Part shown: one piece after another, positions 6,765-18,220 of the stretch
How positions within the stretch are numbered: the first letter of the stretch is position 1
Layout: each line of letters starts with the position of its first letter
IMG/VR virus record: IMGVR_UViG_3300032562_000153
Coordinates: 1-26,841 of that record
Length of the DNA: 26,841 nucleotides
Reading direction: 5' to 3' (one strand)
DNA from: a virus
The notes under the pieces: model-generated
The model's input: only the letters and a program-made list of their open reading frames with translations
The model's database searches: none
Told to the model about the DNA's origin: nothing
Made by a program: the position numbers and the translations under genes

Positions 6765-9700
6765 TTAAACAATAAATGTACCCATCGCTTTAACGTTGGC
6801 CTGTGCTATTGTCGATGTATAATAAATGTTTACATTGCCACTAATTACATTAGCACTAATAGTACCTACACTAGTTCCATTATTTACTATTCCGTAAACA
6901 CTAACAAAAGCATTACCGTTACCGTCTGTTAACACGTGTGCTTCATATGTTTCAAAGTTGGTTGTGCCAACTTTGGATGTAATCAAATACTTAGCAGTAG
7001 TATAAGCAGTTTGACTCCATGTATCAACTTGCACTGGCGTATTTGCTAATGGAATATTAACAGGTGTTTGATTGTAGGTAACTTTGTTTCCTGTTAAGAA
7101 GTTCATGTTACCCACTGGGTCAACTAATACACGCTCAGTTGTACCCGATGTTCCTGTCCATATACTTGATCCTGTATTATCAGCAATAAATTGATTTAAA
7201 CCATTACCGCTAGCAAGTGTTGAAACTACAGTAGTAGTTGCTAATACACGAACGTCAATGACATCACCAGGTGCCGGAGGTTCTGTAAATGTTAAAGTTG
7301 CACCGCTTACACTATAAGCAAGTGTTGGGAACTGCATCACACCGTTAATGCTTACAATAGTGCTTGACGTTGTTGAGTTTGCTTGGATTGTATAGGTCGT
7401 GTTTGTGCCGTCAACGTTTCCGTATCCAGTGTTGCCACTAAATTGTCTATCACTAATTACAGTAAATGATGATCCTGTTGCTTGCCAAGCACTGCCATCA
7501 AAGAATTCTACGTTATTAACAGTGCTGTTAAAACGCATCATACCTTGTACATCAACGTTACCACTATTACTTGGTCGTTGTGCTGTTGTACCTACTGGTA
7601 ATAACATCGAATCATGTGAGTCAACTTTAAATGTAGCACCAGGTTGTATTGTAGTATTACCGCCACTTGCTCCGGGTCCACTACCACCAACTACTACAGC
7701 ACCGAGGTTACTGTTAGCATAAATTAATGCTGTGCTTGTAGCACCTTTAACAGTAAAATTGTCACTTGTTTGGCTGTTATTAATTACAGCACCATTAGCT
7801 ATCCATAAGTTGCTGTTAATACCTACACCGCCGTTAACTGTTAGTGCGCCAGTTGTTGGACTTGTGGCAACTGTACTATATTGTATACCAACGTTTGTGT
7901 TATTAGCACTTACTCTGATACCCACAGTTGTAAATGAATTAGCAGAAATTACTACATCTTTAGTTGCTGCTAATATCAGATTGCCACCTATACCGAGACT
8001 ATAACTATCTATAGGTTTAATGATAGGAACATTTGAATTATTAAGATAATTAGAACCTGTTATACCTACTAAATGTAGATTATTGCTGTCTGACCCGGTA
8101 TCTGCCATGGCAGCAAATTCAGAAGTTGCTAAATTACCGTTACTGATATTTTGTATTGATATTCTTTGTGAAGAGTTAGAAACCGCAGTAATTTGTACAA
8201 CATCTTCTAAATATAAATTATTATTTAGATCTAGTCCAAGAGCAATTCTGGTATTGCTCTTAATAACTAAATTCCCAGCTATGCCAACGCCACCATTAAC
8301 TACCAAAGCACCAGAAGAGTAACTATTCGAAGTAGTAGCTGTATTAACTGTTATTCCAGAATCAGTAATATTAGCACGAATATTTGTGTTTAAATATCCG
8401 CCAGTAAAGAATGAAATTGTTTTTCCTACAGTATCTGTACCAATTACTAAGTTAGCAATATTAGAATACATATAGCCGTCACCTGGACTTGCTACAGTAA
8501 ATCCTTGACCATTTACGTCATACCCGCTTCCTAGAATACCAATATCAAGGTAGTTATTTGTGTCAGTTCCGATATTATTATACAGAGCAAAATCTGTACT
8601 TGCTATGTTTCCTTGACCAAAATTCTGTACAGCAACCTGTACACTATTATTTGTATTACCAGCAAAATATCCTAATACACTAGTATGTATACTTGTGAAT
8701 GCATTTACTCCATTTTGTACAACACCTAATATACCAGCAGTAGTAATATTACCAGCGGCACCAATAGCACCCGCTGTAACAATAGAGCCACTAGTTGATG
8801 TATTACTTGATGTTGTGGCATTGGCATAGAAACTAGCACTTGCTGATAAGGTTGTAAAGGCACCTGTACTTGCTGTCGCATTGCCTACCGGAGTAGCATT
8901 GATAGCCGCAAATTCAGCTAACCCGCCAATGATATTTCCGCTAGTACTTAATGTAGCAGCAACAATACCAACTGCTAATAAATTGCCTGTAGTATTAATT
9001 TGTCCAGCATTTAATTGTGGAGTCAAAATATTACCAGCAGCATTGATATATCCGCTGATTGTTTCATTTCCGTTAACAACTAAGGTATTAAATGTAGCTG
9101 TTTGTCCAAGTACGTTGCCTTGTACATTTAAGTAACCACTGTTAATTGTTTGGTTGCCATTAACTGTTACGCTGTTAAATATAGCACCTGTTGCTAATAC
9201 ATTACCGGTTGTATTAATCTGTCCAGCATTTAATTGTGCTGTTAAAACATTGCCTGTTACATCTAAATAACCAGTTACAATTTCGTTACCATTGACTGTT
9301 AAAGATTGGAATGTACCCGATGTTCCTAGTACGTTACCAGCACTGTTTATTTGTCCTGCTACCAAGGTACCTTGAATACCTGCTCCACCAGCTACTTGTA
9401 GTGCTCCGGTTGTAGTTGATGTTGATGCTACTGGGTTAGTTAATACTAAGTTACCAGCTTTAACTCCATCATAGATAGCGTTAGTAAAGTCAACTTGGCC
9501 ACCAGCTGGCTCTGGAACATTACTGAATATTTTCCAATAGCCGTCTGCGTTATCACGAATCATACCAGTGTGTTGATATGTGTTACCAGAGCCACCAATA
9601 AAGTGACTGTAGAAGCCTAGATCATAATTGTATGGATATACCACATTACCTTGTAGATATAATAGTGGATCTTGTACAGCTAGGTATTGATATCCTGTAC

Positions 9701-11735
9701 CAATAATATTAGCTGCGTAAATATTACCTTGAACAAATACGTCTTGGCCGAAACTAGCACCACCTGTTACTTGTAGAGCACCAGTACCAGTCGATTGTGT
9801 TGAGTTTGTCGAGCTATTAAGAATTAATGTGCTTAGTGTACCAGTTTGTCCTAGGATATTACCTTGAACGTTTAAGTAACCACTGTTAATTGTTTGATTA
9901 CCATTAACAGTTACACTATTAAATGTACCAGCGGTAGCTAAGATGTTGCCAGTGGTATTGATCTGTCCTGCGTTTATTAGAGCAGTTGATATATTACCTG
10001 TTACGTTCAAACTAGCACCAGTAAATGCTGTGCCTGTGTTACCAATAAATCCAGATTCAATATTGCCAGCAATCGCATACGTAAATACCGCAGTGCTCGG
10101 AGTTACATTACCAATTGCTGTATTTTGTATGCCTTGTCCTACATACAATCTACCACCTATACCAGCGCCACCTATTACTTGTAATGCGCCACTGGTTGTG
10201 TTTGTGCTTGCTGTTGCTGATTTAATTAATAACGCATTTTGCGCATAATTAAAACGAGCAATTTCGTTAGATGCTCCTTGTCCGTTTAGGGAGAATACTA
10301 TATCATTGGCTAACGATGTTGATAGTAATAAGTTACCACTTCCTGTTACAGCATTACCAAATACATACAAGTAACCATCACCTGGATAATTTAATTCGCT
10401 ACCAGCGCCGCCGGTAAAGCCGGAACTGTTGATACCCATGTCGATGTAACCTTGGGTAGTATTACCTGTATCCATTGTAGCGACAAAGTCTGAGGATGCG
10501 TTTGATCCAGCATTGAGGTTTTGATTGTTAATTTGGATGAAGTTGTTAGCATTACCAGTTGATTGAATAGTCGTGTATGGTTGTGGAGTATATCCTATTA
10601 CACCAGCATATAGGGCACCAGCACCTACAGCATTACCATAGAATACACCAATGTTACCACTAATAGTAAAGCTATTACCGATGACATTTAGATTGCCGCC
10701 TACCCATAAATTTCCACCAATGCTTGCTCCGCCGGTTACCTGAAATGCGCCAGTGCCAAATGCTGTTGCTTGTGTAGCGTTTGTAACTGTGGTTATTCCA
10801 CTAGATGTTAGCGTTGTAAACGCACCTGTGCTAGTTGTAATATTACCTATCGGAGTCGCGTTGATAGCTGCAGCCTGAGTTAATCCTAAGAGGACATTAC
10901 CGCTGGCATTTATTGTTGTTGTTATTAAACTAGCTGATAAGATATTTCCAGATACATTTAGATATCCAGTAAATGTGCCGTTACCGTTAACTAGTGCTGA
11001 ATTAAATGTAGCACTTTGTCCTAAAATATTACCTTGAACATTTAAATAACCACTATTGATACTTTGGTTACCATTGACTGTTAGACTATTATGAACAGCA
11101 CCAGCTGATAATATGTTGCCAGATATATTAATTGCAGCACCATTAAATTGTGTGCCTACATTACCCACTGTAACTGCGGCTACGTTGCCGAATGTTGCTG
11201 TGGAACCTGTATGTAATTGTGCGATACTTGTACTTGATAAGATATTACCAGTAACATTTAAGTTAGCACCTGTAATAGCGCCTGTGATATTAATACCACC
11301 TACGTTGGCAAACCCACCAACGTTTAAACTACCGATACTTAATGGTGCTAATCCTGTAGCATTAACGTTACCATATGTTGTGCCTGTTTCTGCGGTAGCA
11401 ATTAAACGGAATTCTTTGTAGGTTTCGCTCCATATAAATGCTTGGTTAGTTGATGTACCGCGATTAAATACAAAACCTTCATCGTATGTATTTGTACCGC
11501 TAAAACCATTGTTTAAAACAATTAATGGGTCATTAACATAGGTGTTAGTTGATGCCACTGTAGTCACCGCACTACTACCTAATACACTTAAGTTACCTGA
11601 AATTAACAAGTCACCTGGTATAGTAACGTTACTAGCAAATAAGGAACCTACGATAGATCCTGGCTGAATCTTTTGGCTAGCTACAATAGTAGCATTGTAG
11701 ATTTGATTATTTAATATTCTGGTTAAGGCCGACAT
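6765..11735 (-). CDS. Giant repetitive tail fibre protein, 1656 aa
   Basis: This is a long, low-complexity, Gly/Asn/Thr/Ser-rich protein made of short beta repeats such as SGYLNVQGNILG and INTTGNILA, typical of trimeric fibre shafts. Three 71-bp copies encode TVNGNQ-INSGYLNVQGN. At least three larger modules with a (D/E)(F/L)A--D-G core and a PGDGYLY-like turn interrupt the shaft (around residues 390-470, 1010-1090 and 1150-1240). The C-terminal part has a RFNSTVNNVEFFDG strip and a GTNTTYTI-VSINGVMQ-DVIDVRVL module also found in the 18222-21269 and 24258-24680 products. No S74 or other self-cleaving end is visible. The ATG at 11735 has GGAG five bases upstream; an in-frame GTG at 11741 would overlap that GGAG and is rejected. 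Likely host-binding. Confidence 0.85.
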   Translation of the reverse strand: MSALTRILNNQIYNATIVASQKIQPGSIVGSLFASNVTIPGDLLISGNLSVLGSSAVTTVASTNTYVNDPLIVLNNGFSGTNTYDEGFVFNRGTSTNQAFIWSETYKEFRLIATAETGTTYGNVNATGLAPLSIGSLNVGGFANVGGINITGAITGANLNVTGNILSSTSIAQLHTGSTATFGNVAAVTVGNVGTQFNGAAINISGNILSAGAVHNSLTVNGNQSINSGYLNVQGNILGQSATFNSALVNGNGTFTGYLNVSGNILSASLITTTINASGNVLLGLTQAAAINATPIGNITTSTGAFTTLTSSGITTVTNATQATAFGTGAFQVTGGASIGGNLWVGGNLNVIGNSFTISGNIGVFYGNAVGAGALYAGVIGYTPQPYTTIQSTGNANNFIQINNQNLNAGSNASSDFVATMDTGNTTQGYIDMGINSSGFTGGAGSELNYPGDGYLYVFGNAVTGSGNLLLSTSLANDIVFSLNGQGASNEIARFNYAQNALLIKSATASTNTTSGALQVIGGAGIGGRLYVGQGIQNTAIGNVTPSTAVFTYAIAGNIESGFIGNTGTAFTGASLNVTGNISTALINAGQINTTGNILATAGTFNSVTVNGNQTINSGYLNVQGNILGQTGTLSTLILNSSTNSTQSTGTGALQVTGGASFGQDVFVQGNIYAANIIGTGYQYLAVQDPLLYLQGNVVYPYNYDLGFYSHFIGGSGNTYQHTGMIRDNADGYWKIFSNVPEPAGGQVDFTNAIYDGVKAGNLVLTNPVASTSTTTGALQVAGGAGIQGTLVAGQINSAGNVLGTSGTFQSLTVNGNEIVTGYLDVTGNVLTAQLNAGQINTTGNVLATGAIFNSVTVNGNQTINSGYLNVQGNVLGQTATFNTLVVNGNETISGYINAAGNILTPQLNAGQINTTGNLLAVGIVAATLSTSGNIIGGLAEFAAINATPVGNATASTGAFTTLSASASFYANATTSSNTSTSGSIVTAGAIGAAGNITTAGILGVVQNGVNAFTSIHTSVLGYFAGNTNNSVQVAVQNFGQGNIASTDFALYNNIGTDTNNYLDIGILGSGYDVNGQGFTVASPGDGYMYSNIANLVIGTDTVGKTISFFTGGYLNTNIRANITDSGITVNTATTSNSYSSGALVVNGGVGIAGNLVIKSNTRIALGLDLNNNLYLEDVVQITAVSNSSQRISIQNISNGNLATSEFAAMADTGSDSNNLHLVGITGSNYLNNSNVPIIKPIDSYSLGIGGNLILAATKDVVISANSFTTVGIRVSANNTNVGIQYSTVATSPTTGALTVNGGVGINSNLWIANGAVINNSQTSDNFTVKGATSTALIYANSNLGAVVVGGSGPGASGGNTTIQPGATFKVDSHDSMLLPVGTTAQRPSNSGNVDVQGMMRFNSTVNNVEFFDGSAWQATGSSFTVISDRQFSGNTGYGNVDGTNTTYTIQANSTTSSTIVSINGVMQFPTLAYSVSGATLTFTEPPAPGDVIDVRVLATTTVVSTLASGNGLNQFIADNTGSSIWTGTSGTTERVLVDPVGNMNFLTGNKVTYNQTPVNIPLANTPVQVDTWSQTAYTTAKYLITSKVGTTNFETYEAHVLTDGNGNAFVSVYGIVNNGTSVGTISANVISGNVNIYYTSTIAQANVKAMGTFIV
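9106..11090 (-). repeat. Three 71-bp coding repeats inside the giant fibre
   Basis: Near-identical 71-bp units lie at 9106-9176, 9850-9920 and 11020-11090. They encode the TVNGNQ(S/T)INSGYLNVQGN(I/V)LGQ block and differ mostly at third codon positions. Weaker copies lie between them. They look like fibre-shaft units that expand or shrink by recombination. Confidence 0.75.
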
Positions 11736-11824
11736 GGACACTCCGCAATTTATTGTTATAACACGCTAACAGCCTGCGGTTCCATATCCCCTTAGCTTGA
11801 TCTGTGTTGTTTAGTATATTTATG
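11736..11824 (-). promoter_or_regulatory. Late promoter and 76-base leader of the giant fibre gene
   Basis: CATAAATA on the minus strand (11817-11824) resembles the late promoter motif and lies just after the stop of the radical SAM gene. T4 spacing puts the start near 11811, giving a leader of about 76 bases, much longer than the 16-base leaders of other late genes here. The leader contains AAGGGG followed by a nine-codon frame starting ATGGAACCGC and ending in TAA. A weak CCGCA/TGCGG pairing touches the fibre ribosome-binding site. Confidence 0.5.
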
Positions 11825-11836
11825 CGAGTTTAGAAA

Positions 11837-13207
11837 TTATATTGCTGGTACTATTGGGATTATCTTCTTAGCTGTTTGCTCGGGGCGGCCATTAACCCAC
11901 CAGAATATATCTCGTCTATCTGCCCGTTGCGGACCATCGATGTAAATGGGAACATAGCCTGTGATTAGTTCAAATATGTTGGCAAAGATAGCAACGTTAT
12001 CGCTATAAGCATTATCACAAGTAGCTTCCCATAAGTCGCCTGTTAAAAACATACAAGCACCTTGACATAGGTGTATCATAGGGCAGTTAGGACATTCTGC
12101 TCTATCGCTCCAATGTGTAGCTGTGTCAACTCTAACTTTGGATAAGTCACTAACATGCCCAATGTGATGTGGTATACCAGCTGGGTTTCTAGCCACTGCG
12201 CTGACGTTTTGGCAAGTAAGTACATTACCATGTAGGTCCACAGCAATGTTATTAGCCTTATCCATACCGCACTTTTGTGGCACAGTTTCTAGCCGACGCT
12301 GTGACTCAACTGATGTTAGAAACTTTCTAACCTTTTGACTTATGCCCAAGAAACGTTTTGCTTTTAAGTCACGTATTTCGTTGTAAGTTTTGTGCCTATA
12401 CTTGATTTGGTCATCAGCATCTAACAAGGAATTTTGTAGGCCGCCTACATCATAAGCATCAACAAACATGCCTTCACCTATTACTAGGTATTGTAGGTAG
12501 TCTTCACCAAGGTTAGTTCGAATAAACTCTTCAAAGTAATCAGTAATAGCTTCACGGCTAGTGTTCTTGCTGTTCATCATAACGTTGAAGCTTACTTTGT
12601 GCTTAGGTGCTAGTATTTTGTACAGGGCTATTACTGCCATTCTACTACCGTCATCAGCTAAAGGATCAGGGCCGCGAACATGTTGCCCGGGACCATCATG
12701 ACTTATACCTACGCCAAAGCTATGACGATCCAACCACATGATCTTTTCTAAGTCCAGCAAGCTACCATTGGTAATTACACTGTGTTCTGCCTTGGGATAT
12801 TGTTTGATAATTGCTTCTGCTAAAGGCTTAAATGTTTTCCAATAGACAAATGGCTCACCGCCCCAATACTCAAATTTAACACCCTCGCCGGTTCCGGGCA
12901 ACCAGTTAGGCATATTAGCCACAAAGGCCGCTACATCATCTGGTGTAGTTTCATCTGAATGTGGCACAAAGCGTTGGTTACAATAATCGCACTCAAAGTT
13001 ACAGCTAAGACCCATTTGAATTTTAACTGTGCTAAGATTGCTTTTACCTTGCTCTATTACAGATTGTACGAGATTGGCGTCAACGTTATTAGGTGCTACA
13101 ATAACATCGCCATCTTTCCAACGAAAAGAATTATTTGATGTATCATAGACGACATCTTTATATTCTTGTGTTGCTGATTTATAGCCTGTAATTTCAAATA
13201 ATGCCAC
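11837..13207 (-). CDS. Radical SAM / SPASM maturase (anSME-like)
   Basis: Residues C69, C73 and C76 form the CX3CX2C motif for the radical SAM [4Fe-4S] cluster. WGGEP (115-119), TNGSL (146-150) and a SHDGP segment (169-173) follow in the usual barrel order. The C-terminus fits the SPASM rule CX9-15GX4C...CX2CX5CX3C...C exactly: C313, G327, C332, C372, C375, C381, C385, C397. Such proteins, including anaerobic sulfatase-maturating enzymes and RiPP maturases, use two extra Fe-S clusters to modify peptides or proteins. The start is GTG with AGGA seven bases upstream, two bases after the preceding stop. It is the last gene of the oxygenase/NCNCNC block. The substrate is unknown; a nearby virion protein is a reasonable guess. 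Confidence 0.88.
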   Translation of the reverse strand: MALFEITGYKSATQEYKDVVYDTSNNSFRWKDGDVIVAPNNVDANLVQSVIEQGKSNLSTVKIQMGLSCNFECDYCNQRFVPHSDETTPDDVAAFVANMPNWLPGTGEGVKFEYWGGEPFVYWKTFKPLAEAIIKQYPKAEHSVITNGSLLDLEKIMWLDRHSFGVGISHDGPGQHVRGPDPLADDGSRMAVIALYKILAPKHKVSFNVMMNSKNTSREAITDYFEEFIRTNLGEDYLQYLVIGEGMFVDAYDVGGLQNSLLDADDQIKYRHKTYNEIRDLKAKRFLGISQKVRKFLTSVESQRRLETVPQKCGMDKANNIAVDLHGNVLTCQNVSAVARNPAGIPHHIGHVSDLSKVRVDTATHWSDRAECPNCPMIHLCQGACMFLTGDLWEATCDNAYSDNVAIFANIFELITGYVPIYIDGPQRADRRDIFWWVNGRPEQTAKKIIPIVPAI

Positions 13208-13209
13208 TG

Positions 13210-13779
13210 TTATGTCCTAGGTATGTAACGATAATTCCAACTGTCACTGGGTGTTAGATGTAGACCAACACTAAGTCTTAAATTATTCTTAGCACGAATA
13301 TTAGGTGTCACTGGCATGTGTGCTAAGTGACTTGGAAATAATACTGCTCTATTAGGTATATATTCTATTTCAGTTAGGCCGAGACTAGTATCTGGTTTCT
13401 TAGTAGTGTCAGAAGTTTGCCAGCATGATTCATCGTTGAATATTTGTAGTTGCCCTGCCCAGGATTTATCCCATGACTCTGAAGCAAACCATATAAGTGA
13501 ATAGTTACCCGGTGGCCCGTCGACGTGACAGTGTGATTCGTTAGATGTAGTAGCACCATTAATACCAACTCGTTGTACAGCAAATGGTCTTATGTCTAAC
13601 TGGGCTAGCTGACCGTATAAGATGCCGCCAACTGTAGATTCTACTGTAGGATCAAATATGCGCCACACACAGGTTTTATTTGTAGCACCGCTTAAAGGTG
13701 GAAACGTCCAATAGCTACCCTTAAAGTATTCAAGACACAGATTCCATTCTTTGTCACTTAAGAAGTTGTCTATGATCAT
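13210..13779 (-). CDS. 2-oxoglutarate/Fe(II) oxygenase, prolyl-hydroxylase-like
   Basis: The 189-residue protein has the iron triad of the double-stranded beta-helix oxygenases: H85-V-D87 within SHCHVDGPP, distal H154 in FPSHLAHMPVTP, and R168 in a LRLSVG strand, suited to bind 2-oxoglutarate. The strands YSLIWFAS and WAGQLQIF between them fit the fold. The closest general type is the prolyl 4-hydroxylase-like group, which hydroxylates a protein or peptide side chain using oxygen and 2-oxoglutarate. The N-terminal MIIDNFLSDKEW is also typical. Its ATG overlaps the stop of the upstream oxygenase as ATGA, implying coupled translation. The real target is not visible in the sequence. Confidence 0.78.
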   Translation of the reverse strand: MIIDNFLSDKEWNLCLEYFKGSYWTFPPLSGATNKTCVWRIFDPTVESTVGGILYGQLAQLDIRPFAVQRVGINGATTSNESHCHVDGPPGNYSLIWFASESWDKSWAGQLQIFNDESCWQTSDTTKKPDTSLGLTEIEYIPNRAVLFPSHLAHMPVTPNIRAKNNLRLSVGLHLTPSDSWNYRYIPRT

Positions 13780-14399
13780 AACTTAATAAAGCTATTGGCC
13801 TGTTGACGGTCTTTAATTCTGGCATTCATTACTACTAGAATACGATCCTTGGTGCCCTTGTACATCTCAGACTCGTGGAACATATAAGCAGGATGAATGA
13901 TAAACAGATTAGGCACTGGTTTTAATTGAAATAACATATTATGATTAAGTCCACGTGAACGCTGTGCTATAGGATCAATTAGTAGCAGTCTACCATCGTC
14001 ACGGTCACATGTGTCCTCATTGCTGTCAACTACATCTAGGTCTACGTAGAATACACCTACATAGTCTATGCCGCGATGTGTGTGCGGGCGTGCCCTATCT
14101 CCGTAGACAAAGCGTCTGGGAAATACATTAATTTCAATCTCAAGTTCTTCTGGGTCAATAAAACCTTCAACTCGTAGAAAGTAATACATTCTTTCTTTAA
14201 CAAGTTGTCTGAAGTATTGTATGCTGTCATCGGGGTCTAGAAACAGGTTAGGGATAGTTATTTCCTGATTGAATATTTCTGGCACACCATTATACTTGTC
14301 GATGTGCGGAAGTATTGCCTGATGAAACTGCTTAAGTATGTCATCAGTTAGGAAATTATGCTCCGTCCAGATATTAGTTGGCCATAATTGATGTAACAT
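13776..14399 (-). CDS. 2-oxoglutarate/Fe(II) oxygenase-like protein, paralogue 1
   Basis: The 207-residue product has H106-T-H108 in a RPHTHRGIDYVGVFYVDLD stretch, distal H175 in HPAYMFHESE and R186 in KDRILVV. This is the pattern of phage oxygenases of the 2OG-FeII_Oxy_5 kind, though the second ligand is His rather than the usual Asp. It is clearly paralogous to the next gene upstream: GRLLL-DPI-QRSR-LNH and HPAY---H-SE are shared. A longer frame reaches 14453, but the ATG at 14399 is two bases from the previous stop and gives MLHQLWPTNIW, which aligns with the paralogue. Its stop overlaps the downstream oxygenase start. Confidence 0.7.
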   Translation of the reverse strand: MLHQLWPTNIWTEHNFLTDDILKQFHQAILPHIDKYNGVPEIFNQEITIPNLFLDPDDSIQYFRQLVKERMYYFLRVEGFIDPEELEIEINVFPRRFVYGDRARPHTHRGIDYVGVFYVDLDVVDSNEDTCDRDDGRLLLIDPIAQRSRGLNHNMLFQLKPVPNLFIIHPAYMFHESEMYKGTKDRILVVMNARIKDRQQANSFIKL

Positions 14400-14400
14400 G

Positions 14401-15048
14401 TTAGATCTTTTTGTAGAATGGATGCTGTATAGGCTCAGCAATTCTAATAACAAAAGTAAAGAAGTAACGAGTTCTTTCGCCTAGATAGGGTTCACTTTGG
14501 TGATACAAGTATGCCGGGTGCATGATAAAGAACTTAGGATAAGGAATAACATCTATATTCTGCGTATGATTTAATGCTCGTGAACGTTGTGAAATAGGAT
14601 CAGTTAGCAATAAACGACCTTTAGGTGTTTTAAAATTATCAGTGCCATCATTTACTACATCTAAATCAGCATAGTAAACTGCTACATAATCACAGCCACG
14701 ATGGTTGTGTGTTTTAGAACGTTCGCCCGGTTGATGACTGCGTGCCGCACTTACTACTTCGATGTCGTACTTTTCTGGATTGATAAAACCTTCTGCTTCC
14801 ATCATCATTAAGGTACGTGATTTGATAAATGCCTTCATCTTGTCGATAACAGGATGGTCAACATCTAATAAGTTATAGCCTTTGCGATTAGGATCTAGGA
14901 TATCAGGAACATGTTTAAATTCCTTAGAATGCTCTTCACCAATTCTAATTAGTTCTTGATTTTCTTCATCACTGATATCGACCTTTTCCATTAGGATATT
15001 TACTGGCCAATGTCTTTGAATTGTTATTTGTTGATTATCTACGTTCAT
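14401..15048 (-). CDS. 2-oxoglutarate/Fe(II) oxygenase-like protein, paralogue 2
   Basis: At 215 residues this is the sister of the 13776-14399 product, with H114-N-H116 in KTHNHRGCDYVAVYYADLD, distal H183 in HPAYLYHQSE and R194. The N-terminal RHWPVNILMEKVDI matches the WPTNIWTEHNFL start of its sister. The two genes are adjacent, so a tandem duplication followed by divergence is likely. The ATG overlaps the stop of the upstream Ig-domain gene as ATGA. Enzyme class rests on these motifs; the HxH first pair is a departure from HxD and leaves some doubt about chemistry. Confidence 0.7.
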   Translation of the reverse strand: MNVDNQQITIQRHWPVNILMEKVDISDEENQELIRIGEEHSKEFKHVPDILDPNRKGYNLLDVDHPVIDKMKAFIKSRTLMMMEAEGFINPEKYDIEVVSAARSHQPGERSKTHNHRGCDYVAVYYADLDVVNDGTDNFKTPKGRLLLTDPISQRSRALNHTQNIDVIPYPKFFIMHPAYLYHQSEPYLGERTRYFFTFVIRIAEPIQHPFYKKI

Positions 15049-15803
15049 ACTTGGATCTCCGCCTTACCTGTGTAAAACTTAAAGCCTGCTTTGACTTTGC
15101 CCTTACCTTTGAACATGAGAGTAGTCTGCGCTTGCCCTTGCTCATCTGTTATAAGTCTTGTTTCTTGTAATAGACCTGTTGTGGTTTCTAGGTATATTTC
15201 GATGCCAGGATTATGAGCAAGTGTGCCGTCGGCATTTACTAATTGAGTGTATACTATGTCATCTTTAAAGTCAAGTGCGATGCTGGGCAACATTGGAATA
15301 ATGTCATCTAGACCGTTGCCATTAATAGTTTCGATAAAATTATCGCCTTGTTCAACCCCATTAATTACTATAGTTTTTGCTGGCAGGAATACAATCCAAT
15401 CTTCAAAAGGGCTATCCGGCCATGGACGAGCAAAGCAAAATCCCTGCTGTATGCCCAGCATTGATGCTACTACATGCCCTGTGGTTGATTTAGAGTCTAC
15501 TGTGTGTCTAAAGAAATCATATACACGAACTTTTTCGTGTAGTCTAAACCCTATACCTATAATAGCATGTGGCTGATTAATCTGTTCGTTTGAGCTGGTA
15601 TCTCTATTAAGATCAGCCGGTGATAAAAATCCACTATAGTGATCAAGTTGATTCATATTCATTTCGCGGCGATGCGAAACAACACAATCTTTACTACCTA
15701 TTAAGGTCAGATCGTATTTTATTCCGTCCATACTGTGTTCTATAATTAGCGTGTTGGGGCTTTGATCTTGCCCTACGTGAGGGCATTTTTTGAATCCTAT
15801 CAT
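15045..15803 (-). CDS. Ig-like-domain virion protein, paralogue A
   Basis: The last 75 residues look like a bacterial Ig-like (Big_1/invasin-type) fold: VYTQLVNADGTLAHNPGIEI, YLETTTGLLQETRLITDEQG, then a KVKAGFKFYTGKAEIQV end. The first 175 residues share a second domain with the neighbouring paralogue, seen in FF/FV-strands around residue 90 and PDSPFEDWIVFLPA with TIVINGVEQG. Ig-like domains decorate many phage capsids, tails and fibres, where they may bind surface sugars weakly. It lies 19 bases after the other paralogue and overlaps the oxygenase gene downstream. It could be a virion decoration or a substrate of the enzymes; the sequence does not decide. Confidence 0.6.
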   Translation of the reverse strand: MIGFKKCPHVGQDQSPNTLIIEHSMDGIKYDLTLIGSKDCVVSHRREMNMNQLDHYSGFLSPADLNRDTSSNEQINQPHAIIGIGFRLHEKVRVYDFFRHTVDSKSTTGHVVASMLGIQQGFCFARPWPDSPFEDWIVFLPAKTIVINGVEQGDNFIETINGNGLDDIIPMLPSIALDFKDDIVYTQLVNADGTLAHNPGIEIYLETTTGLLQETRLITDEQGQAQTTLMFKGKGKVKAGFKFYTGKAEIQV

Positions 15804-15822
15804 AATATTATCCAGTGTAATA

Positions 15823-16584
15823 TTATATAGTTATCTGAGTTTTCCCACTGAAGTATTTAAATCCGGCTTTGACTTTACCTTCTTCTGCGCCAATGACCTG
15901 TGTAGTAGCAAGACCTGTGCTGTCTGTTGTACCTCTAGCTTTGGTTAAATAACCTGCAGTTGTTTCAAAGTAAATATCAACACCAGCTTTTGCTATAGGA
16001 TTACTGCTAGCATCTACCAGTTGTGCCGATACGGTAGTATCTGTTTTGGTTAAAGTGATCCCTGGAAGATTTTCATTACATACATCTGCTATGGTTTTAT
16101 CGATGTCGATATCAAATGTTGTAGTAATGGCCGTTCCATTAACTGTTAAATTATTTGCCACAACAACAAAAGTCCAATCATCAACCGGACTATCCGCAAA
16201 TGGTACTAGAACATACATGATAGGACGAATCTGTGTAGCGTTATTAAAAAACCCAGTTGATCCTTTGATTTGATAGGTGTATTTTAGTACGTCGACAAAA
16301 TAAAATCTATTAGTTTCTTCAGACAGTCCGCAGGCAATAAATTGATGCGGGTTATTTAATGACAGTCCTGTTTTCTTTTCTGTTAAAATGTTAACTGGCG
16401 TAATTGTATCAGTGACATCCGGAGATTCTGGATAGTTATATGTTGTTACTAATCGGCCGTCCACCATAGTATTTGATGGAACTCCTTTAAACCAATTTAA
16501 TTGAAAAGACCCATCTGAGTTTGTAGTTATTGAGATGTTGCAATTAACAAAGTCATTTTTAAATGGTCTAATATAAAACTTCAT
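15823..16584 (-). CDS. Ig-like-domain virion protein, paralogue B
   Basis: The 253-residue product is similar in length and plan to the 15045-15803 protein. Shared landmarks are ADSPVDDWTFVVVA with LTVNGTAI, and a C-terminal Ig-like unit with VSAQLVDASSNPIAKAGVDI, YFETTAGYLTKARG and KVKAGFKYFSGKTQITI. The N-terminal 80 residues differ more, including IRPFKNDFVNCNIS. The start has AAGGA seven bases before ATG. A perfect late-promoter octamer lies 60 bases upstream inside the preceding gene and might drive it. The likely role is a virion surface or baseplate accessory protein; no enzyme motif is visible. Confidence 0.6.
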   Translation of the reverse strand: MKFYIRPFKNDFVNCNISITTNSDGSFQLNWFKGVPSNTMVDGRLVTTYNYPESPDVTDTITPVNILTEKKTGLSLNNPHQFIACGLSEETNRFYFVDVLKYTYQIKGSTGFFNNATQIRPIMYVLVPFADSPVDDWTFVVVANNLTVNGTAITTTFDIDIDKTIADVCNENLPGITLTKTDTTVSAQLVDASSNPIAKAGVDIYFETTAGYLTKARGTTDSTGLATTQVIGAEEGKVKAGFKYFSGKTQITI

Positions 16585-16599
16585 ATCTATTTCCTTGAA

Positions 16600-16863
16600 T
16601 TAACAATTACAATTACAGTTACCAACCATGGTGCCTATTAGGTTATTATTTATATCGTAGTAGTATAACGTCAATGCCATACCACTGCCACCCCAGGTAA
16701 AATGATTACCTGTTTCACCTACTTTTGAATAAGTCGGTAATTGGGCTGTTAATGTTGTGTACCCGCTGTCGTTAGTAAAGGCACTGATATTAGCTGGTGT
16801 TTTTGTAGTTTGTACTGTGCCATCACCAAATGTAACTATTCCATTTCCTAATATTACGCTCAT
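16600..16863 (-). CDS. Small fibre-like protein with NCNCNC tail, copy 1
   Basis: This 87-residue protein starts MSVILGNGIVTFGDGTVQTT, the kind of N-terminus seen in phage fibre proteins. A variable middle follows, then LYYYDINNN and the end GNCNCNC (C83, C85, C87). It has no other cysteine. The first 98 bases are identical to copy 3, after which the two diverge abruptly. Tail codons differ from those of the other copies, so the tail is kept at protein level. It could be a substrate for the downstream oxygenases and maturase, or a small trimeric fibre whose inward cysteines bind metal. No clear Shine-Dalgarno sequence precedes it, so coupling to copy 2 (7 bases away) is likely. Confidence 0.75.
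   Translation of the reverse strand: MSVILGNGIVTFGDGTVQTTKTPANISAFTNDSGYTTLTAQLPTYSKVGETGNHFTWGGSGMALTLYYYDINNNLIGTMVGNCNCNC
16647..16654 (-). promoter_or_regulatory. Possible internal late promoter
   Basis: The minus strand reads TATAAATA, the exact T4 late consensus, inside the codons for Asp-Ile-Asn-Asn of NCNCNC copy 1. It is placed about 60 bases before the Ig-domain gene that starts at 16584. It may be chance in an AT-rich coding stretch. Confidence 0.3.
16766..16863 (-). repeat. 98-bp exact direct repeat, unit 1
   Basis: Identical base for base to 17312-17409. Both cover the ATG and first 32 codons of an NCNCNC gene. Identity stops sharply at both ends of the shared segment. Confidence 0.95.
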
Positions 16864-16870
16864 AGTTTAA

Positions 16871-17131
16871 TTAGCAGTTGCAGTTACAATTCGCTGCGCC
16901 GCCCCAAATAGTATTATTATTAATATCAGACAAATATAGTGTAAGACTATATCCCCAAGATCCTGTAAAACTGCCTACTGACTGTGCTTTTGTTGCGTAA
17001 GTTGCTGCTACATTACTTGGCGTTAGATATCCGTTATCGTTAGCAAAGGCACTGACATTGGCTGGGGTCGCTGTGGTTTGTACAGTACCATCCCCAAATG
17101 TCATTATTCCATTTCCTAATATTGCGCTCAT
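16871..17131 (-). CDS. Small fibre-like protein with NCNCNC tail, copy 2
   Basis: The 86-residue product is the most diverged of the three in its N-terminal part (MSAILGNGIMTFGDGTVQTT) but keeps the plan: NDNGYLTP after the fibre-like start, a variable middle, LTLYLSDINNN, and NCNCNC at the end (C82, C84, C86). It has no other cysteine. Its tail is coded TGT-AAC-TGC-AAC-TGC, unlike copy 1 (TGT-AAT-TGT-AAT-TGT). It shares YLSDINNN with copy 1 rather than copy 3, so the halves have different histories. Only a weak AGAG precedes the ATG. Confidence 0.75.
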   Translation of the reverse strand: MSAILGNGIMTFGDGTVQTTATPANVSAFANDNGYLTPSNVAATYATKAQSVGSFTGSWGYSLTLYLSDINNNTIWGGAANCNCNC

Positions 17132-17145
17132 TTTTAATATTCTCT

Positions 17146-17409
17146 TTAGCAGTTACAATTACAATTCCACGGTCCAGCAGTACCTAATTGAGTTCCAGTT
17201 ACGCTATAGTAATATAATACCCCATTACGACTTGCTGTACCAGTTACTGAATGTATAGCATTAGGTATTGTTGCCCATGTTGATGCGGCTGTTGATGATG
17301 TTAAATATGAACTGTCGTTAGTAAAGGCACTGATATTAGCTGGTGTTTTTGTAGTTTGTACTGTGCCATCACCAAATGTAACTATTCCATTTCCTAATAT
17401 TACGCTCAT
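17146..17409 (-). CDS. Small fibre-like protein with NCNCNC tail, copy 3
   Basis: This 87-residue protein has the same first 32 codons as copy 1, a different middle (SYLTSSTAASTWATIPNAIH), then GVLYYYSVTG and the end PWNCNCNC (C83, C85, C87). It has no other cysteine. AGGA lies seven bases before ATG, and the upstream S74 fibre gene stops one base away, so it is probably made on the same transcript. The pattern of fixed start, changing middle and fixed cysteine tail recalls both modular fibre tips and precursor peptides with a constant recognition part. Function is unproven. Confidence 0.75.
   Translation of the reverse strand: MSVILGNGIVTFGDGTVQTTKTPANISAFTNDSSYLTSSTAASTWATIPNAIHSVTGTASRNGVLYYYSVTGTQLGTAGPWNCNCNC
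17312..17409 (-). repeat. 98-bp exact direct repeat, unit 2
   Basis: The second unit of the exact repeat described at 16766-16863. The intervening copy 2 gene is clearly diverged over the same region, so exchange between copies 1 and 3 or insertion of copy 2 are both possible. Confidence 0.95.
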
Positions 17410-17410
17410 T

Positions 17411-18220
17411 CTAGTTTCCTAGTCGACGTTTAAGTTCATTGACTTCTTGACGTAGTTCTTTAATGGCTTCAATTAGTAGCGGAGCAAAACGTTCATATTG
17501 AACAGTTAAATATTCATCGCTGATCGGTGCTGTTTTAACAATTTCAGGTAATACTGCCTGTGTGGCCTGCGCACTTACACCAACTTCACGCTGACGTGTG
17601 TAGCCTAATCCTTGTGCCAGATCATTTGCTTCGTAGTAGAATCCAGTTAGTTGGTCTACTTTATCTAGAGCATTTTCAATTACACCTAGTTTAGTTTTTA
17701 ATCGTTCATCTGAATAGTAACTCGTAATAGCATTAGTCGCACGTATTTCACCTACGTTACCAAATGTTCCAGTACCTACTCCCAATGACGTTAGTTGAGT
17801 ATATGCTGCTGTTATATTACCTGTTGTTATATTACCTGTTGTTATATTACCTAATGTGGTGATATACGGTTGACTTGCTGTTTGTAATGTACCAGTTAAA
17901 TATGCTCCGTTGACATATCCAGCAGCGGTTAGGTTGCCCGAAAGAGTAACTGATGAAGTACTAATAGTACCTTGAATAGTTCCGTATATAGCACCAGCAA
18001 CATATAAGTTGCCGCCGATACCCATACCGCCACCGACAATCATTGCGCCCGAAGTAGATGAAACAGAATTTGTATTTGCTGTAATTGTTAAACTACTTGC
18101 TGTTAAATTAGCACCTGTTGTGCTAGCACGTAGCCAAGCCGTTTTTGTGCTATTGTAAACATAAGTAATTCCGTTTACTAGTGCTTGTTGTCCGTTTGAT
18201 GGGCTTGAAGGAAATGCCAT
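17411..18220 (-). CDS. Tail fibre with S74 self-cleaving chaperone domain
   Basis: Residues 1-165 are fibre-like: MAFPSSPSNGQQALVNGITY, then GGGMGIGGNLYVAGAI and short TTGNI repeats. From S170 the protein matches the peptidase S74 intramolecular chaperone: SDERLKTKLG with S170 and K175 as the catalytic pair, EVGVSAQ, YLTVQYERFAPLLIEAIKEL and a C-terminal coiled coil. In this family the chaperone helps the fibre trimerise and then cuts itself off just before the serine; here that would release about 100 residues. GGAAG precedes the ATG. It ends one base before the first NCNCNC gene. Short tandem 15-base repeats at about 17808-17850 encode the TTGNI units. Confidence 0.88.
   Translation of the reverse strand: MAFPSSPSNGQQALVNGITYVYNSTKTAWLRASTTGANLTASSLTITANTNSVSSTSGAMIVGGGMGIGGNLYVAGAIYGTIQGTISTSSVTLSGNLTAAGYVNGAYLTGTLQTASQPYITTLGNITTGNITTGNITAAYTQLTSLGVGTGTFGNVGEIRATNAITSYYSDERLKTKLGVIENALDKVDQLTGFYYEANDLAQGLGYTRQREVGVSAQATQAVLPEIVKTAPISDEYLTVQYERFAPLLIEAIKELRQEVNELKRRLGN

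Follow-up and report, generated by a model that had tools for sequence, protein, structure and literature searches.

Three paralogues share an alternating cysteine tail

Why should a phage end three consecutive fibre-like proteins with the same alternating run of asparagine and cysteine? The window that raises this question, i.e. the whole stretch of 26,841 nucleotides analysed here, is a virus fragment from IMG/VR. Its genes for a tail sheath, a sheath-stabiliser-like protein and S74-type fibres point to a contractile-tailed, T4-like phage. The genes described below between 11837 and 18220 lie on its minus strand. Directly downstream of a tail fibre gene with a Peptidase_S74 intramolecular chaperone (17411..18220), ORF translation and comparison with relatives define three short putative fibre-tip paralogues of 87 (17146..17409), 86 (16871..17131) and 87 residues (16600..16863), each with a C-terminal NCNCNC.

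The first-pass annotation of this locus held that cysteine is confined to the NCNCNC end of all three proteins, and translation confirms this for the window trio. As a rule for the wider family it had to be rejected, with just 39 of 137 tailed proteins free of earlier cysteines. The same annotation stated that the tail codons differ among the copies, as indeed they do (AACTGTAATTGTAATTGT, AATTGTAACTGCAACTGC, AATTGTAATTGTAACTGC), and the peptide rather than the DNA is thus what is kept. This reading is strengthened by a near relative (L117) that carries the same trio, each member ending NCNCNC in still other codons, and by 137 distinct tails in which both synonyms are freely used for each residue (AAC 278, AAT 185; TGC 362, TGT 244). 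Together these data support selection of the NCNCNC tail at the peptide level, at the C-terminus of phage fibre-like proteins, a position that probably corresponds to the fibre tip. A monomer fold of the short protein has a mean pLDDT of 51, dropping under 50 over the final four residues, and is uninformative on cysteine orientation. A tblastn search of cultured phages with the short tailed protein gave no match.

The tail recurs in many phages

Other phage fibres ending in (NC)n, which the first-pass annotation proposed to look for, proved to be recurrent. An IMG/VR scan with the back-translated tail plus a stop codon returned at least 119 stretches. Translation of each listed stretch separated genuine tailed proteins of 80-1082 residues from chance frames of 7-30 residues, and the chance frames of the NCNCNC DNA pattern served as an internal control. 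A scan with a TGA-terminated pattern gave mostly chance ORFs, but several real tailed proteins with a radical SAM gene were among them. Most of the genuine carriers among the matches listed resemble fibre proteins. They include short LGNGIVTFGDGT proteins, which frequently form tandem trios like that of the window, and TLRSTKGSPLTN fibres of 360-440 residues, alongside proteins with collagen and CBM5/12 repeats and NC-rich proteins of 125-173 residues.

Across the 137 distinct tails the run extends from three to ten Xaa-Cys pairs. The residue preceding cysteine is N in 463 pairs, A in 61, D in 41 and V in 11, with others making up the rest, and N occupies the first and the second such position in 123 of 137 tails each. 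Cysteine is therefore the constant element of the tail and asparagine its preferred neighbour. Our reading of the carriers as many unrelated scaffolds was weakened by a similarity analysis: because 124 of the 137 tailed-protein bodies fall into one similarity component, the scaffolds are not all independent.

Several features of individual carriers deserve mention. Tandem trios of short tailed paralogues, found in the window (16600-17409) and at L027, L044, L051, L067, L093, L099, L100 and L103, can be sorted by their different tails (NCNCNCACNC, NCNCNCNC, NCNCACNC) into several groups and might form a heterotrimeric tip. Fibres such as L010, L023, L083 and L115 carry a His-rich stretch (HHFDPHHHHNNCTNCNCNC) just before the tail, possibly a metal site beside a modified tail. 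Finally, two further families end in NCNCNC, one of 202 residues beginning MANTKQY (L019, L049, L068, L084, L102) and one of 184 residues beginning MALEVALSSDC (L016, L063). No radical SAM protein of the window family was found in the tested contigs L019, L016 and L063, the last having only a weak, distant PF04055 match, and the motif in these two families reflects either independent use or coincidence.

A radical SAM gene accompanies the tail

The radical SAM domain PF04055 is encoded by 46 of the 50 contigs whose tailed ORF is genuine and by 2 of 25 chance-match contigs, among the matches listed (Fisher p 4e-13); L063 is counted among the 46 though its match is weak and distant. Two of the four negative contigs (L039 and L117) are cut near the tail gene, and the others are L016 and L019, members of the MALEVALSSDC and MANTKQY families respectively. 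A phmmer search with the window protein placed the radical SAM proteins that adjoin tail genes in one family, which includes the window ORF at 11837-13207. At nearly all loci the two genes share a strand and the radical SAM gene follows the tailed one at a distance of 9 bp to about 4 kb; at L088, L101 and their copies the called ORFs of the two proteins overlap.

For the converse test, an alignment of the radical SAM family (A2) was scanned against IMG/VR, giving at least 586 relatives, and against one genome per bacterial species, giving 94. Loci preceded by 4 kb or more of sequence were scored for a protein with a tail of three or more Xaa-Cys pairs, upstream and on the same strand. An Xaa-Cys-tailed protein lies upstream in 61 of 61 such viral loci among the matches listed, representing 39 radical SAM clusters at 80% identity; 59 follow the preset rule, while the proteins at L213 and L216 end NCRNCNC. 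The controls for these loci gave 0 of 49 for the mirror-image downstream region and 4 of 61 for the opposite strand upstream (among the matches listed). In bacterial genomes the tail is found upstream in 47 of 61 radical SAM loci, against 1 of 57 downstream, and among proteins scoring at least 480 bits the rule finds it in 32 of 34; in one of the two exceptions, L302, an acidic stretch comes after NCNCDC. About 14 bacterial relatives, mostly distant ones, lack a tail under this rule.

A third comparison held the fibre N-domain TLRSTKGSPLTN constant and considered complete genes with an informative neighbourhood. Tail and radical SAM gene occur together in 20 cases and neither in 19; one fibre has a doubtful tail (NCNCTK) without the enzyme gene, and six have the enzyme gene without a tail. 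All six have a separate Xaa-Cys-repeat protein beside the radical SAM gene, so that counting either a tail or a repeat gene leaves 26 cases with both elements, 19 with neither, one with the doubtful tail only and none with the enzyme only (p 5e-12). The tail, wherever it is placed, tracks the radical SAM gene. Homologues without a tail, which the first-pass annotation had named as evidence against a role for it, do occur, yet they also lack the radical SAM gene, and this supports a function of the tail.

The tail is thus conserved, widespread and near-obligately linked to a radical SAM gene; the finding is real and larger than first noted. We found no description of this linkage in the open-licence papers searched.

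Some loci depart from the simple pattern. The contigs of L012 (IMGVR_UViG_3300046804_006776) and L044 (IMGVR_UViG_3300032561_000012) each hold eight separate radical SAM matches, several in tandem, which suggests larger clusters of such genes in some phages. At L173, two Xaa-Cys-tailed genes and a second radical SAM fragment flank the radical SAM gene of one phage locus. A distant relative in Parasutterella muris (L351) lies downstream of proteins whose cysteines repeat in other patterns (CSHCTYCAYCTHC, NCTTVNCTTVNC); this may be a related system in which the cysteines are spaced differently. Campylobacter phage CP220 has two radical SAM genes near baseplate genes (L430, record positions 12969-17450), an arrangement seen in Campylobacter phages. 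We considered its radical SAM protein as part of the same system and rejected it; it belongs to a different family, with no alternating-cysteine tail within 5 kb.

Neighbouring genes

Between the trio and the radical SAM gene, the window encodes two paralogous Big_1/Ig-like proteins identified by domain search, of 253 (15823..16584) and 252 residues (15045..15803), and three accessory 2OG-Fe(II) oxygenase-like proteins. Two of the latter (14401..15048 and 13776..14453) match PF13759 above cut-off and phrog_81; the third (13210..13779) matches PF13640 below cut-off (E 8e-4). A repetitive, fibre-like ORF of 1658 residues (6765-11741) lies directly downstream of the radical SAM gene. A Big_1-like protein is present in 116 of the 163 radical SAM loci examined and is the third conserved gene beside the tail gene and the enzyme. 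An AF2 model of the 253-residue partner (pLDDT 93) matches PDB entries partially, as Ig-like folds, and its BFVD matches are unnamed phage proteins. The same model speaks against a trans-acting RRE (leader-recognition domain) in this protein, the C-terminal part being Ig-like and a winged helix absent. The 2OG-Fe(II) oxygenases occur in 70 of the 163 loci, with a second oxygenase group in 24, and are common in phage tail regions generally; we infer only that they could hydroxylate tail Asn or Asp.

The enzyme is of the radical SAM/SPASM type

The proposed tail maturase (11837..13207) is a protein of 456 residues that scores 32.1 bits against PF04055 (cut-off 29.5) and 28.9 bits against the SPASM model TIGR04085 (cut-off 27). 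Its CxxxCxxC motif is CNFECDYC at residues 69-76, with cysteines invariant in 21 relatives. The SPASM pattern CX9-15GX4C - CX2CX5CX3C - C is present as C313-X13-G327-X4-C332, then C372, C375, C381 and C385, then C397, and all seven of these cysteines are invariant in the family alignment. The protein is a member of phrog_1802 (E 1e-65). No specific maturase family in NCBIfam reaches its cut-off; the top-scoring ones, DynA, anSME and PapB, fall far short of theirs. The second of these, anSME (TIGR03942), gives 58.8 bits against a cut-off of 349.45, and the curated ranthipeptide and sactipeptide families (PapB, SCIFF, CcpM and others) give at most 51 bits against cut-offs of 340-600. Its PDB relatives are 8vpo, 5wgg (which we take to be CteB) and anSMEcpe. 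The nearest families are peptide and protein maturases, and the window enzyme is probably of the radical SAM/SPASM protein or peptide maturation type, outside every maturase family tested. About 55 residues precede the radical SAM core, a short region in which no RRE appears among Pfam or NCBIfam hits.

The auxiliary clusters offer a further clue to the chemistry. We assume that their ligands can be assigned by reference to anSME. A HMMER alignment with anSMEcpe retains the first AuxI cysteine of CGMNGTC, and the second, six residues on, is without a counterpart in the family. One auxiliary cluster should therefore have three cysteine ligands, and by this alignment AuxI of the window family is not fully ligated by cysteine as it is in anSME. 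An open auxiliary cluster has been described in the thioether-forming CteB and SkfB, and a fully ligated one in anSME, SuiB and PqqE (PMC8326336). By this analogy, a three-cysteine cluster would favour thioether chemistry without proving it; the invariant D316 or another residue could close the cluster.

A proposed route of tail maturation

We propose that the NCNCNC peptides are substrate tails of a phage-encoded radical SAM/SPASM enzyme, which, encoded downstream on the same strand, would act on the C-terminal Xaa-Cys run of the tail-fibre tip protein. In the most likely step, cysteine sulfurs would be joined to carbons of neighbouring Asn, Ala or Asp, giving thioethers of the sactionine or ranthipeptide kind. 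The product would be a rigid, redox-stable and protease-resistant end cap or receptor-contacting tip, which the Big_1/Ig-like partner would probably position or cap. Cys-to-Asn thioethers have precedents in NxxcB, which joins a cysteine sulfur to an upstream Asn (PMC13361665), and at Asn16 of ruminococcin C1 (PMC12395415).

In some phages a Hint domain follows the tail and, by cleaving itself off, would leave the tail as a free C-terminal end. This is the arrangement in the Achromobacter phages JWF and 2-1, where a Hint domain beginning FPAGTMVLMADG adjoins the tail, which reads NCNCDCNCNCSC or NCNCDCNCSC. In JWF gp028, PF05203 (Hom_end_hint) follows the tail directly (E 3e-12), and phage 2-1 and several alphaproteobacterial loci have the same or a Hint-like arrangement by sequence. 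Self-cleavage here would again leave the tail at the C-terminus, where it already stands in the window, whose tails end at the stop codon with no Hint domain after them.

Judged on these lines of sequence evidence, maturation of the C-terminal Xaa-Cys tail of a fibre tip by the radical SAM/SPASM enzyme, most likely by thioether formation, is the probable explanation of the locus. We consider it likely that the tail is the enzyme's substrate; formation of thioethers is moderately likely, and the proposed role at the fibre tip is plausible. The more specific form of the proposal, a RiPP-like virion maturation in which the enzyme installs several thioether or other cysteine-derived cross-links in an (Asn-Cys)n fibre-tip C-terminus, sometimes after Hint self-cleavage, we rate as an even chance. 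Several findings weigh against maturation: the MANTKQY and MALEVALSSDC families are tailed without a nearby radical SAM gene, some bacterial relatives of the enzyme lack a tail gene, and an RRE is not evident in the short N-terminus of the enzyme. As X varies (N, A, D, V), the reaction is unlikely to be Asn-specific at every pair. The linkage shows a functional link rather than the identity of the substrate, and the enzyme might instead target a different fibre residue or the Big-like partner.

Among the alternatives, the one that survives best, though unlikely, is that the enzyme modifies the tail by another reaction, giving a reactive or otherwise unusual tip: conversion of cysteine to formylglycine as in anSME, epimerisation or methylation. 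It draws on anSME being the second-best NCBIfam match, a top PDB relative and the GenBank label of JWF gp030, and on cysteine being far more constant than X, such that the chemistry may lie on cysteine alone. Phage 2-1 gp029, whose record cites the JWF protein, is labelled a radical SAM domain-containing protein, as is phrog_1802. Set against this reading are the anSME-family score, the missing cluster ligand and the absence of the CxPxR sulfatase motif from the tail.

It is less probable still that the tail is a covalent cross-link or anchor, made by disulfides between chains or by a bond to the Big-like protein, with the enzyme acting elsewhere in the tip operon. The frequency of the Big_1-like partner would suit such an anchor, and the three tandem tailed paralogues of many loci could build a heterotrimer; disulfides, however, are unstable in the cytoplasm, where tails are assembled, and JWF-type phages keep both enzyme and tail with a partner only marginally like the Big family. 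Slightly behind this stands the rather improbable arrangement put forward in the first-pass annotation by analogy with the HxH iron sites of the T4 long tail fibre tip. Here the cysteines would point into the interior of a fibre trimer and hold a metal or an Fe-S centre, the enzyme being unrelated or of redox help only. A CxCxC spacing would fit a metal site or a beta strand, the monomer model predicts with low confidence that the final strand ahead of the tail is beta, and several relatives carry the His-rich stretches (HHFDPHHHHNNCTNCNCNC) just before the tail. Such a site explains less than enzymatic maturation: it leaves a near-perfect linkage to a radical SAM gene of peptide-maturase type unaccounted for, and tails of up to ten pairs exceed the needs of one threefold metal site. 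The linked gene at 11837-13207, which the first-pass annotation did not notice, points instead to enzymatic maturation of the cysteines, in place of or before simple metal binding. That the tail is a functionless low-complexity or microsatellite artefact of AAYTGY repeats has a negligible chance of being right. The repeat unit is indeed a hexamer, and most ORFs from the TGA-terminated scan were chance ones, but the mixed codon choice, the strict placement at a stop codon or before a Hint domain and the strong linkage to the radical SAM gene refute it.

If enzymatic maturation of the tail is correct, phages would have a new means of building or protecting receptor-binding tips, namely radical enzyme chemistry carried out on an adhesin of the virion. 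It would also give a function to the phrog_1802 family of phage radical SAM proteins, which now has none, and account for radical SAM genes that are generally classed as auxiliary metabolic genes. The putative substrate tail is both short and portable; tail and enzyme genes are carried by the cultured phages JWF and 2-1 and by bacterial isolates of Limnohabitans, Polynucleobacter and Magnetospirillum, making tail modification directly testable by mass spectrometry.

Comparison with known systems

The tip of the T4 long tail fibre protein gp37 has HxH iron sites, in which residues of the metal-ligand type alternate, and the NCNCNC tail resembles it in having such residues alternate at a fibre tip. 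It differs in using cysteine rather than histidine, in its position at the extreme C-terminus and in its dedicated radical SAM gene, and gp37 is not a homologue by any search done here. The phrog_1802 entry, a radical SAM domain-containing protein, includes the window enzyme and gives no function, substrate or tail. Hint or intein-type autoprocessing is represented by PF05203 after the tail in JWF gp028, with similar arrangements in 2-1 and alphaproteobacterial loci, and is absent from the window.

The anSME enzymes are alike in being radical SAM/SPASM proteins that modify Cys or Ser of a whole protein; the phage family stands apart in its score (58.8 bits against 349), the absence of one AuxI cysteine ligand and the lack of a sulfatase motif. 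The ranthipeptide and sactipeptide maturases (CteB, PapB, SkfB, NxxcB) share with it the radical SAM core, the SPASM-type auxiliary-cluster domain, a repeated-cysteine substrate in the same neighbourhood and an auxiliary cluster with three predicted cysteine ligands. In contrast to these systems, the phage enzyme has no evident RRE and scores well below all curated NCBIfam cut-offs, and its putative substrate, the C-terminal end of a fibre protein in the virion, lacks the organisation of a small leader-core peptide. A cysteine-rich precursor lies beside the radical SAM gene in 61 of 61 viral loci among the matches listed, and in the phages this precursor is the fibre protein itself.
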